Shown one piece after another: positions 19,242-34,558 of a DNA stretch of 38,267 bases; position 1 is the first letter of the stretch; every line of letters starts with the position of its first letter. The position numbers were made by a program, and so were the translations under genes. The DNA is from an uncultured Methylococcaceae bacterium (GTDB lineage Bacteria; Pseudomonadota; Gammaproteobacteria; Methylococcales; Methylococcaceae), in NCBI GenBank assembly GCA_903857165.1, contig CAIODU010000017.1, positions 1-38,267 on the forward strand. The letters are read 5' to 3'. The notes under the pieces were generated by a model that saw nothing but the letters and a program-made list of their open reading frames with translations, did not search any database and was not told the DNA's origin.

Positions 19242-19312
19242 CGTAGGATGTGCCGACGAAGGAGGCGCATCATTCGCGAATGATGGGCTTCGCAAGCTCA
19301 GCCCATCCTACG
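19242..19312. repeat. Nested palindromic repeat
   Basis: An outer pair CGTAGGATG (19242-19250) / CATCCTACG (19304-19312) encloses a perfect 18-bp palindrome, CATCATTCGCGAATGATG (19268-19285). This is a dispersed repeat of the GTAGGATGGGC type. The region 19158-19326 has no credible gene. Confidence 0.6.
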
Positions 19313-19326
19313 GCCCTTCGTTGTTA

Positions 19327-19560
19327 TCAAGCGGTTTCATCGCGCAATTCCAGTCTCCGCTCAATGCGGGCCAGACGGTTTTCAAAGCGATCCATGCGAA
19401 GATTTAGCCCGGCGATGTCAGCATGAACTCCCGCCATCTGTGACTCAATTGAGCCTAGCCGCATGATCATGGTATCAAATTGTTCGTCATGTCGCGCCAA
19501 GGTCGAACGAATGGAACGCAGATGCTCTAGGATCAGATTGGAAACGTTGTCTTCGGTCAT
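19327..19560 (-). CDS. Small coiled-coil hypothetical protein
   Basis: This 77-residue product from ATG 19560 has GGGA at good spacing. From about residue 10 onward it is a heptad-rich helix (EHLRSIRSTLARHDEQFD, then IESQMAGVHADIAGLNLRMD and a charged end with repeated RLARIERRLE). No catalytic motif is seen. Similar short proteins are common as hypotheticals in proteobacteria. It lies between the two 58-bp direct repeats, and the ribosome site and clean coiled coil support it as real. Confidence 0.7.
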   Translation of the reverse strand: MTEDNVSNLILEHLRSIRSTLARHDEQFDTMIMRLGSIESQMAGVHADIAGLNLRMDRFENRLARIERRLELRDETA

Positions 19561-19702
19561 GATTTTTCCCGTGTATCGTTAACATGTGACGCAATTACAA
19601 ATCCCGCCTTGCCCATGGAGCCTGAATGAACACGCCAAACGTCGGCGCGGGTCGGCTGGAACGGCGGGTTAGGCGGGTAGGCTAGGGAACAATGCCGGGG
19701 TT

Positions 19703-19760
19703 CATGGATTTTGCTCTTTTTATCCATTCGGCGCAATACGCGGAGTACCGCTATTGCGCC
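19703..19760. repeat. 58-bp direct repeat, right copy
   Basis: This is the second copy of the 18576-18633 repeat, with about three substitutions. It is followed directly by further dispersed repeats, including a CCCGGATT...GGGCTACG unit at 19832-19869. Confidence 0.7.
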
Positions 19761-19884: not shown

Positions 19885-20278
19885 GCATTCCCAAGCTGGA
19901 GCTCTCATCGTTATACACAAGTCGTTGCGAGAGCCACGGAACCCCGAAGGGGTTCAAGCCATTAGCCGGGGGTTGAGCGAAGCGACACCCCCGGACGGCA
20001 AACCGAATAAAATATCGACCCCGGAGGGGTCGCAGTCTTTCCGGCGCGGCCTAGGATAACACCGGTCTAAACCTAGCATTTGCAGCGTTTACGGAAGAAC
20101 TCCTAGGTTATTGGGCCGATTGCTGCGACCCCTCCGGGGTCGTGGGTCTTTTTTCCGCATTTTCCGGGGGTGTCGCTTCGCTCAACCCCCGGCTAATGGC
20201 TGGCAACCCTACGGGTTGCAATATATTGGCATGCGTACACTTGTGTATAACGGCGAGAGCTGGAGCTTGGGAACGAGC
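19885..20278. repeat. Giant inverted repeat made of two three-hairpin elements
   Basis: The left arm (19885-20035) and right arm (20123-20278) are inverted copies of about 150 bp around an 87-bp centre. Each arm holds three hairpins. In the left arm these are GAACCCC-GAA-GGGGTTC (19939-19955), CCGGGGGT...ACCCCCGG (19966-19994) and CGACCCC-GGA-GGGGTCG (20016-20032). A 37-nt block with the middle hairpin is identical in both arms. The first hairpin differs by two compensated base pairs. No gene is credible between 19561 and 20336. It may be a mobile structured element or a repetitive RNA-like unit. Confidence 0.75.
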
Positions 20279-20311: not shown

Positions 20312-20341
20312 TATAAATCAATGCGCCAGCATTGATTTATA
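20312..20341 (-). terminator. Perfect 13-bp stem-loop over the coxC stop codon
   Basis: The left arm (20312-20324) and right arm (20329-20341) are exact complements around GCCA. On the minus strand the structure begins at the end of coxC, whose stop lies inside it. The stem is AT-rich and no long T run follows, so it may be a weak terminator or a 3'-end stabilising structure for the cox message. Confidence 0.5.
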
Positions 20342-29873: not shown

Positions 29874-30032
29874 GGGATTCTCCAAGAGTGAGGAGTGCAA
29901 GACGCGCCTTGAATTTTTTTCGGGAGCGCAAGGCTTGCCTTGCATTATATGACACAGGTAAGCTTTACGCTCAATATCCAAGACACTACAGCAATTCCCA
30001 TTATGAGCCAAAGTGCCGATAGACAACTCGTC

Positions 30033-30148
30033 ATTCCGGCTTAGGATGCCGGAATCCAGTCACAAGGATGTGAATCTAGGGCGCGCCATCAAGCCTTTTT
30101 CAAACACTTACGCAACCGATAAGTTACCGTCCTTAGGCGCTGGATTCC
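30033..30148. repeat. REP-type palindrome pair
   Basis: The hairpin ATTCCGGC (30033-30040) / GCCGGAAT (30048-30055) is followed by an inverted partial partner. GGAATCCAG at 30051-30059 is complementary to CTGGATTCC at 30140-30148. It is the same family as 10-110. No gene is credible in 30027-30455. Confidence 0.6.
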
Positions 30149-32227: not shown

Positions 32228-34558
32228 TCAATGGACTGATTTTTTATCCGACACCCAACTGGCGTTTTCCAACACCGCTTCCCAAGTTTGCCCGAAGCAA
32301 TCCATGCGCAAGCGCCGCACACCGACTTCGGGCTTGATTTCAGCCAGTGTGTGCACTTGCCACTCGATGCCCGGTGCGAGGCGGATACGGTGTTCGCCTT
32401 TTTGCCGCCAGACTTGCGTTTCCTCGTCCCAATGACGGCAATAATGGCTGTCGCAACCCGTGCCTAGCGGGCGTAGCAGCGCGACCAACAGATGTCTGCC
32501 CCGACCAATCGGCAACAAGCGCATAGACGGGCGGTCGTCCCAACACTCGGCGGCGCTGCTGAGTGGCGTTAGCCCCAAAGCCAGCAGCCAAAGGTCAAGC
32601 AAAAGGGCCGTCTTGCCCTGCCGGTCATAAAACCCGATCACCGCCGCCGTCTTTTCAAAGGCAGCGGAAGCGCCCTGCGTTTCTGTCAAGCGGAATTGCC
32701 CGAGGAGGCTTAGATTGACGTTCAGGCAAGCCGTGTTGCCCGCGCCGTTTTCCGGTGTCTTGATTCGATAGCGAAAACTGAGTCCGGCAGGCAATTTCAT
32801 TGCAGCGGCAAGCGGCTCGCTGATGGGGGCGGCACTGACAAAATCCCCATCCGACGGCCTTTTGCACAGCCGGAAATTCCGGGCGGTTTGATCGCCGCTG
32901 CGCACCAACACATTGCCAAAATGAAACGGCAAAGTAGGGCCGCCTAGGTATTCGCCGATTTGCACATGCAGGTGCAGATGCGGTTGCGGCGAACGCCCAG
33001 AACTGCCACACGCTGCGATGCGCTGGCCGGGGTTGACCCATTCGCCGACATTGGCCGTCAAACTACCCTGCTTGAGATGGGCAAGTTTCACATACAAACC
33101 ATTCCCCATGCGGAGCAGCACAAAATTCCCCCAATTGTTGACAAGGTCCACCTCGCCTGGTGGCATGTCGGGCAGGTCGGAACGCAATAGCACCACTTGC
33201 CCTGCCGCCGGCGATAGCACGGGCGCACCGAAGCAGTAATAATCGGTTAAGGAAGCACCGTCGCCACTGTGGCTGCGTCCGTTTTCGACAATATGAAAAT
33301 CCAAGGCATGCCGCCACGCCTCGCGATGGGTGTGCGGCCCGTCAAAACCTTGCGATACTTGCCATTCGCCGTAGAACGGCAGGGCCAGTGGCAGGCTGTC
33401 GGCGGGTGCGCCCCGCGCTTCGGCCAGCCGCGCCCGCTCGTAGGTGATTTCCGGCGCGGAGGGAAGCTCTAGGTTCAGGTAAGGTTTCCGCCAACGAGTC
33501 CGTGCGCTTAACGCACCTAGGCACAAATAGACGGCAAGCAAAAAGGGGGCGGTCAACAGCGGCAAGGCGAAGCCGTACAGCATCCCGTTCAAAGCCACCG
33601 CCGTCCATCCGCTCAACGCACTGCCCGCCACTGCGAATGCAAATCCAGCCCGGCTCGGCACGGTGAAGATGCCGCCCAAGGCCATGGCGGTCAGCATGAA
33701 ATTAAAGCCATTGCCGTGCGGGTCGCCGAGATTGAACAAATGGAATCCCGCAAGGCCCGCCAGATAGCCCGCCGCCGCCAACAGGCCCAGATAGCGCGAG
33801 GCCACGACCAGCCCTAGAAACAGCAAGACCCCCGCCAGCGGGTCAGGAACTAGGAAGAGCCAGCCCAAGGAGGTGAAAAATGGATCCAGCCACGGTGTGA
33901 ACAAGGCTTGCGTATTCGCCTGGCCGGCGACGGATGCCAAGGTCGCCGCACGGTAGGGTTGGGTCAGCAGTATCGCCCACGTCACCAAGGTGAACGGCAG
34001 GCTCAACACCGGCAGTCTGCCCGTCTGCCATAGCAGCCCCGCCAGCCAGTGGGCGCTCAGTGTGACCAACAGGGACGCGATGGCGACCCAGGCCAGCAAT
34101 TGCATATCCAAAGGATGGATGGCACCGATGACTAAGCCGGTGAGCAAGCCGTTGACCCAATGCGGTTCGCCGGGTTTGGACAGGCCCAACACGCGCCCAC
34201 AGCCGGCGGCGCAAAATAGTCCGAGCAAACCGGGCAAGGCAGTCTGTGGCGAAAACCAAGTCAACAGGGCGAACCATGCGCCCAACCACGGCGAATCGCA
34301 GAACAGCACCGACGCATAGGCGCGGGCAAAGGGTGCGATCAATATTCCTAGACGGATTATTAATGCCGTAAGGCGAGCAAACGTCACTTCCAAAAAGCTT
34401 AGGGCAAACCCCGCCGACTCGTTTTTAAACACCGAGTTGGTATGGTGTCCAGATAGAAGGGCAGGTTCTTTGCTTGCCCACGGGAACCGGATCAATCGGC
34501 GGACACGAAAAAGCCTTGCCCAGCCTGCGTTTTTGTTTTCCAAGGTTACGGCGCTCAT
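32228..34558 (-). CDS. Urea-transporter-like membrane domain fused to M23 metallopeptidase domain
   Basis: This 776-residue fusion has three parts. Residues about 55-350 are multi-span and carry two internally related blocks typical of urea transporters (SPWLGAWFALLTWFSPQTAL with WVNGLLTGLVIGA, and NGFNFMLTAMALGGIFTVPS). Residues about 395-535 are an M23/LytM domain with zinc ligands in HALDF (H417, D420), LVNNWGNFVLLR, KLAHLKQGSL and PHLHLHVQ (H527-H531). The last 240 residues are unrecognised. M23 enzymes cut peptidoglycan cross-links; the transporter part probably forms a channel. The 4-bp ATGA overlap with the PLP gene argues for joint function. Confidence 0.82.
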   Translation of the reverse strand: MSAVTLENKNAGWARLFRVRRLIRFPWASKEPALLSGHHTNSVFKNESAGFALSFLEVTFARLTALIIRLGILIAPFARAYASVLFCDSPWLGAWFALLTWFSPQTALPGLLGLFCAAGCGRVLGLSKPGEPHWVNGLLTGLVIGAIHPLDMQLLAWVAIASLLVTLSAHWLAGLLWQTGRLPVLSLPFTLVTWAILLTQPYRAATLASVAGQANTQALFTPWLDPFFTSLGWLFLVPDPLAGVLLFLGLVVASRYLGLLAAAGYLAGLAGFHLFNLGDPHGNGFNFMLTAMALGGIFTVPSRAGFAFAVAGSALSGWTAVALNGMLYGFALPLLTAPFLLAVYLCLGALSARTRWRKPYLNLELPSAPEITYERARLAEARGAPADSLPLALPFYGEWQVSQGFDGPHTHREAWRHALDFHIVENGRSHSGDGASLTDYYCFGAPVLSPAAGQVVLLRSDLPDMPPGEVDLVNNWGNFVLLRMGNGLYVKLAHLKQGSLTANVGEWVNPGQRIAACGSSGRSPQPHLHLHVQIGEYLGGPTLPFHFGNVLVRSGDQTARNFRLCKRPSDGDFVSAAPISEPLAAAMKLPAGLSFRYRIKTPENGAGNTACLNVNLSLLGQFRLTETQGASAAFEKTAAVIGFYDRQGKTALLLDLWLLALGLTPLSSAAECWDDRPSMRLLPIGRGRHLLVALLRPLGTGCDSHYCRHWDEETQVWRQKGEHRIRLAPGIEWQVHTLAEIKPEVGVRRLRMDCFGQTWEAVLENASWVSDKKSVH

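Follow-up and report, generated by a model that had tools for sequence, protein, structure and literature searches.

Insertion sequences of the IS50 subgroup (IS50/Tn5) are 1350-1550 bp long, end in the consensus CW------Y---CA-A--W- and duplicate 8-9 bp of their target (PMC2266710); for the IS4 family overall, the duplication is about 10 bp. One IS4-family element, ISRm22, of the subgroup IS4Sa (PMC2266710), has been found inserted into REP palindromes (PMC1525189). In the portions of two papers considered here (PMC3116915, PMC3733652), REPINs and REPtrons, which are associated with RAYT transposases, have inverted palindromic arms with one hairpin each and a GTAG tag, a less conserved spacer and paired changes, and their arms also flank a Y1 transposase gene. 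The part of one survey consulted (PMC3733652) further describes TIRtrons, in which long, partly self-complementary inverted repeats enclose a Y1 gene but are also found gene-free and as repeat families, and reports that REPs tagged with CGTC have no dedicated transposase.

The element described here lies in a stretch of 38,267 nucleotides (the window) from the genome of an uncultured Methylococcaceae bacterium (G000; 4.9 Mb, 428 contigs, order Methylococcales), between the 3' end of coxIII and an intergenic repeat region. Judging from sequence comparison, it is very probably a non-autonomous transposon with two nested layers, a Tn5-type MITE outside and a Y1-type folded doublet inside. Each layer is of a known kind, and what is new is the nesting of a Tn5-type with a Y1-type system. 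The outer layer shares with IS50 and the MITEs derived from it the transposase family, the YREK motif, 19-bp ends that fit the consensus and a parent length of 1449-1452 bp, but it differs in its 10-bp (not 8-9-bp) duplications, its strong preference for palindrome loops and its miniatures filled with REP doublets. Insertion of an IS4-family element in REP palindromes is a trait shared with ISRm22, whereas here the element is of the IS50 type, comes with miniatures and occupies the loop, with 10 bp duplicated. All the traits listed above for REPINs and REPtrons recur in the inner layer, except that each arm (about 95 nt) holds three hairpins instead of one and no GTAG tag; moreover, its transposase fits the IS200/IS605 model and not the REP-associated one, and its arms lie inside Tn5-type ends. 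The likeness to TIRtrons extends to both their gene-bearing and gene-free forms, but the triple-hairpin design and the double-layer mobility proposed here are not described in the consulted part of the survey, and many copies of the CGTC-tagged REP dimers, which are reported there to lack a dedicated transposase, lie here inside Tn5-type ends.

A BLAST search of both strands of G000 returned 94 matches; the best 40 of 218 candidate places were scored, and an alignment of 26 scored copies with their flanks gave the element boundaries. The preliminary description had placed the structure at 19885-20278, an extent that contains the element but is too wide: the true element spans 19904-20257, and positions 19885-19903 and 20258-20278 lie outside it and belong to the duplicated target and the palindrome that the insertion interrupts. 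The two inverted arms with three hairpins each, and the 37-nt block identical between them (CCATTAGCCGGGGGTTGAGCGAAGCGACACCCCCGGA), were found as described. The features, in window coordinates, are as follows.

19887-19893, plus strand: left half of the interrupted target palindrome (ATTCCCA); the uninterrupted form, ATTCCCAAGCCGGAACTTGGGAA, is at the syntenic place in G006
19894-19903, plus strand: left target-site duplication, AGCTGGAGCT, 10 bp, matching the right copy at 10 of 10 positions
19904-20257: whole element, putative Tn5-type MITE, 354 bp, non-coding, defined by copy alignment, ends and target-site duplication
19904-19922, plus strand: left terminal inverted repeat (TIR), CTCATCGTTATACACAAGT; an identical 19 bp bounds Tn5-like transposase genes
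19939-19955, plus strand: hairpin 1 (HP1) of the left arm, type A, GAACCCC-GAA-GGGGTTC
19966-19994, plus strand: HP2 of the left arm, CCGGGGGTTGAGCGAAGCGACACCCCCGG
20016-20032, plus strand: HP3 of the left arm, CGACCCC-GGA-GGGGTCG
20036-20122: inter-arm spacer, 87 nt, the place occupied by the transposase gene in Y1-bearing relatives
20126-20142, minus strand: HP3 of the right arm
20164-20192, minus strand: HP2 of the right arm
20203-20219, minus strand: HP1 of the right arm, type B, GCAACCC-GTA-GGGTTGC read inward
20239-20257, minus strand: right TIR, CTCGCCGTTATACACAAGT read inward
20258-20267, plus strand: right target-site duplication, AGCTGGAGCT
20268-20273, plus strand: right half of the interrupted target palindrome (TGGGAA)

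The arms are complementary to each other at 89% (19888-19922/20239-20273), 92% (19943-19995/20163-20215) and 100% (20016-20035/20123-20142), and the DNA of the region folds at -148.5 kcal/mol, against -65.5 +/- 4.9 in shuffles (z -16.9).

The window copy sits in the loop of the palindrome TTCCCAAGCTGGAGCTTGGGAA, bounded by its 19-bp terminal repeats and the perfect 10-bp duplication. Full copies in the 26-copy alignment carry CTCATCGTTATACACAAGT outside both arms, and the palindromes they interrupt read TTCCCA(A/C)GCTGGAGC(T/G)TGGGAA or its GGAG/CTCC flip. The 14-nt core of the ends occurs 170 times in G000 with up to one mismatch, versus once for the reversed control, and the palindrome arm TTCCCA(A/C)G stands at a fixed distance outside 124 of the 133 ends collected; 165 uninterrupted palindromes of the target type (up to two mismatches) are also present in this genome. 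Since all targets are alike, the duplications had to be compared between own and swapped pairs: in the 31 elements with both ends, left-right identity was 72% for own pairs versus 55% for swapped ones, with the 10-bp frame clear of 6-9 and 11-13 bp. The duplication is perfect in eight of these 31 and matches at nine of ten positions in six more, the imperfect ones representing recombinants or decay. An empty site was found in G006, of the same genus, where the uninterrupted palindrome CGCATTCCCAAGCCGGAACTTGGGAACGAG lies beside the same coxIII gene (C170:11770-11799). With up to one mismatch, 16 of the 81 genomes and 8 of the 29 genera searched contain the TIR (none for the reversed control), and the same TIRs bound a second element type of about 205 bp. 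Being short, non-coding, present in many copies and bounded by a target duplication and the TIRs of an autonomous element, the element is best classed as a Tn5-type MITE. The preliminary description, centred on the fold, had missed that the window copy looks to have been placed by a Tn5-like double-strand transposase acting through TIRs that need no fold.

The source of these ends was sought by a PF14706 (Tn5-type DNA-binding) profile search of 81 relatives and a scan of named genomes with the Tn5-like protein as query. The only PF14706 match in G000 is a truncated ORF of 119 aa at the edge of contig C389, which starts about 55-56 bp inside an identical TIR, itself placed in the same type of palindrome. 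The 428 contigs of G000, which break at repeats, yielded no intact gene for a Tn5-like transposase, and PF01609 had no match there, in line with the truncation of the sole Tn5-like gene found. Because the fragmented assembly breaks at these very repeats, the copy numbers in G000 and the absence of an intact parent insertion sequence are uncertain; many of its contigs start or end in these elements, which may account for part of the fragmentation. Identical TIRs lie about 55 bp before a longer Tn5-like ORF in G001 (C42) and just before another in G066 (C28). Complete insertion sequences with the TIR on both sides were found in a Methylobacter sp. MAG (1452 bp) and in Pseudomonas sp. A-1 (1449 bp, flanked by the perfect 10-bp repeat CGCAGGAGCA), the duplication thus being 10 bp in Pseudomonas sp. 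A-1 as in the miniatures, and not the 8-9 bp of the IS50 subgroup. Their transposases (458-461 aa) belong to the IS4 family. The Tn5-like transposase matches PF14706 (E 8e-23), has a DDE domain, scores 307 bits with the NCBIfam IS4-family model NF033590 (cut-off 160) and carries the YREK motif as YAVRWCIEVYFHVLK; the closest protein in the PDB to the G001 version is the Tn5 transposase (E 6e-26). CTCATCGTTATACACAAGT fits all seven fixed positions of the IS50 subgroup end consensus, and 12 contiguous bases of the TIR presumably match the Tn5 outer end. The right end of L158, L160 and L161 reads CTCATCGTTATACACATCT. A literature search for Tn5-end sequences and a search of a plasmid collection each gave no match. 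A TIR common to all Tn5-like transposases of the order was considered and rejected: the transposases of G030, G041, G055 and G060 lack it, so the link between this TIR and its transposase is specific to one subclade.

For the inner layer, the linked transposase anticipated in the preliminary description proved to be a Y1 enzyme, of a kind whose substrate is single-stranded DNA. G079 has a 147-aa ORF that encodes a Y1_Tnp domain (PF01797, 6e-25) and lies between arms of the same type. Across the 81 genomes, seven Y1 loci of at least 69% identity were found, in G000 (two), G002, G025, G050 (two) and G079, and in all seven the gene has three-hairpin arms on either side at a distance of up to about 400 bp. 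At six of them, the arms form an inverted pair around the Y1 gene as in REPINs and REPtrons; at the G025 locus (L209), they share one orientation except for a 21-24-nt fragment. One of the two G000 frames is intact (C137:20977-21417). The protein scores 68 bits with the IS200/IS605 model NF033573 (cut-off 55) and fails the REP-associated (RAYT) model NF047646 with 26 bits against a cut-off of 80; translated copies share HVH, the HUH motif of this family, and a conserved tyrosine in a YI..QE.HH stretch, which by analogy is probably the catalytic one. As a rule, neither GTAG nor CGTC stands at the foot of HP1-HP3 in the arms inspected. Arms without Tn5-type ends occur at the Y1 loci, at L051 (G000) and at L201 in G311, which belongs to a distant family; G311 represents the at least one genome outside the order that carried arms when 369 genomes of the class were searched and two candidates per genome were scored. 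A BLAST comparison of the 87-nt spacer with the Y1 loci and the flanks of the Y1 gene detected no similarity, and a derivation of the spacer from these flanks was rejected. Insertion in the IS200/IS605 family takes place at defined cleavage sites and duplicates no target sequence. No empty site for a Y1-type insertion was found; L051 is unsuited as a clean one, because one degenerate arm is present at the corresponding syntenic position in G001 and in G003. The interior of the element (about 281 bp) can best be described as a gene-less doublet of the Y1 system, resembling a very large REPIN.

The first hairpins of the window, GAACCCCGAAGGGGTTC and GCAACCCTACGGGTTGC, do differ as first reported, pair 2-16 going from A-T to C-G and pair 4-14 from C-G to A-T. 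Given that the A and B versions recur in most copies and at most of the Y1 loci, these are not on their own two fresh compensations; the A/B contrast is mostly an old, ancestral difference between left and right ends, and the evidence for the fold comes instead from many copies. Most Y1 loci pair an HP1 of type A (GAACCCC/GGGGTTC) with one of type B (GCAACCC/GGGTTGC), as the window element does; both arms are of type A in G079 and at one G050 locus. Over 47 arms from ten genomes, hairpin cells are paired in 97.0% of cases versus 91.9% in shuffles, 6 of 24 stem pairs have changed on both sides, with paired changes in each hairpin, and covariation reaches 0.135, versus 0.056 in shuffled and at most 0.048 in slid versions. 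All fold measures exceed the slid versions, and all exceed each of 500 shuffles except the number of doubly changed pairs, which seven of the 500 reach. Since relatedness inflates the covariation scores of the arms, a within-genome test on 24 aligned G000 copies was added, in which departure from the consensus was 2.5% in stems, 11.5% at unpaired arm sites and 12.7% in the spacer (2.7, 10.9 and 14.6%, respectively, at G/C sites alone). Variation is thus about 4-5 times lower in stems than at unpaired sites, so that the comparison of paired with unpaired substitutions over more copies, on which the preliminary description had staked its claim, came out in favour of the fold. Double Watson-Crick changes in these copies number 7 versus 0.9 in shuffles (maximum 6 in 2000), although gene conversion between copies, which could shift both sides of a stem together and mimic compensation, possibly explains some of them. 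The paired changes, the low stem variation and the linked Y1 transposase bear out a structured mobile element with selection on its fold.

These figures weigh on the possibility that only the Tn5-like ends matter and that the hairpins are captured, decaying passengers of a plain MITE, as repeat-rich DNA trapped between two ends that insert into repeat clusters. The same ends do carry other cargo (CGTC-tagged REPs at 74 of the 133 ends, three-hairpin arms at 55), and some elements, of 97-102 bp, hold just one CGTC hairpin. However, the stems that vary so little and the double changes in excess of shuffles are those of carried copies, and G050, of another family, has preserved the layout of three hairpins; we consider this reading possible but rather unlikely. 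For the nested reading, the low stem variation favours carried copies that still serve the Y1 enzyme, or still exchange with copies that do, over mere descendants of such copies.

As to the form that is kept, the left HP2 of L032 and L036 alone has changed from GGGGG/CCCCC to GGTGG/CCACC, which breaks the pairing between arms and preserves the local hairpin. Because these double changes are confined to one arm, the local hairpins and not the arm-arm pairing appear to be kept, and a giant arm-arm hairpin was rejected as the selected structure. Read on the inward strand, the loops are mostly GNA (36 of 47 in HP1, each of the 37 three-base loops in HP2, most in HP3), and the complement, TNC, never occurs; together with the one-arm double changes, this points to likely selection on local hairpins formed by the inward strand. 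GNA loops closed by C-G form unusually stable DNA mini-hairpins, and their presence is consistent with single-stranded DNA, though no proof of it. The preliminary description had left the choice between folded RNA and single-stranded DNA, of which the latter is the better supported. A role of the hairpins as RNA, either as a transcribed structured element or as a bidirectional terminator insulating the insertion from neighbouring genes, would fit the strong fold of the region and the stem-loop followed by a T-run on each strand (20123-20145 on the plus strand, 20032-20016 on the minus strand), but terminator-like sites number 2 versus 1.3 expected in shuffles, no Rfam family matched the window, and the arms flank genes for enzymes that act on single-stranded DNA, all of which makes this role very improbable. 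That two REP families were merely joined or nested through repeat-mediated recombination, as the mixed duplications and swapped end modules produced by inter-copy recombination might suggest, is hardly credible given the perfect 10-bp duplications, the same ends on complete insertion sequences and the empty site, whose one target copy had already disfavoured it.

The sister elements of about 205 bp carry head-to-head dimers of CGTC REPs, CGTCATTCCGGC...GCCGGAATCCAG. G000 holds 269 exact CGTC REPs of the search pattern, and some of its dimers lack Tn5-type ends. Three of these (L267, L258 and L270, about 139 bp) share a common frame, CATTATGAGCCAAAGTGC ... GCAATGGAGCC, which is possibly a further carrier. 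The Tn5-type miniatures with a single CGTC hairpin are L228 1501-1602 and L234 1501-1597 (97-102 bp); L228 lies outside the usual palindrome, with CGTTAACG on both sides. One further CGTC-tagged REP is present in the window at 30029-30059, and one G000 copy of the element (L021 550-654, C381) is broken by an insert of about 105 bp beside the right TIR.

Other sequences in the window were recorded alongside the element. Just downstream of coxIII, positions 20312-20341 form a perfect palindrome, TATAAATCAATGC-GCCA-GCATTGATTTATA, whose counterparts are TATAAATCGATGCACCAGCATCGATTTATA in G006 and a similar hairpin in G004; the changes are paired, and the palindrome is likely a conserved terminator of the cox operon. 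A repeat of about 145 bp with a GGCGCAATACGCGGAGTACCGCTATTGCGCC hairpin (19617-19760) recurs many times in G001-G003 and G006, where one contig often has several copies at spacings of a few hundred to a few thousand bases. The short-ORF region at 19300-19595 has 94-96% identical copies in G001, G002 and G006 and a second copy in G000 (C131). On the minus strand, 32228-34558 encodes a 776-aa protein in which an M23 peptidase domain (PF01551) comes after a urea-transporter domain (PF03253), a fusion that looks unusual.

The nested reading is built on the TIRs, the target duplication, the target itself, the empty site, the TIR shared with insertion sequences, the Y1-flanking arms and the conservation of the stems, all of which are observed. 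From these, we infer that the element is mobile and would be transposed in trans by each enzyme. A Tn5-like transposase (IS4 family, IS50 subgroup) supplied in trans would cut at the 19-bp ends and place the element in the loop of one of the abundant TTCCCA(A/C)GCTNNAGC(T/G)TGGGAA palindromes, duplicating 10 bp; the predicted target sequence is TTCCCAAGCTCCAGCTTGGGAA. The inner pair of inverted arms would have lost its Y1 gene, leaving the doublet of about 281 bp, and its hairpins would most likely be kept through recognition of each arm by the Y1 transposase as folded single-stranded DNA. More speculatively, and with considerable doubt, this Tn5-like group might spread REP doublets in methanotrophs, inserting in REP loops and carrying in its miniatures at least two unrelated doublets (Y1-type arms and CGTC-tagged REPs), which would enable both double-stranded (DDE) and single-stranded (Y1) DNA movement of one element.

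A DDE miniature with a Y1-type doublet as its body, set in the loop of a third palindrome, would join three repeat classes that are usually handled apart, and the 47 arms offer a large natural set with which to test by what features a Y1 transposase recognises folded DNA. The Tn5-like ends would give REP dimers without a dedicated transposase, as the consulted part of one survey has them (PMC3733652), a concrete and testable source of mobility. If the broader proposal is true, carriage by Tn5-like elements would be a route of spread for orphan CGTC REPs.
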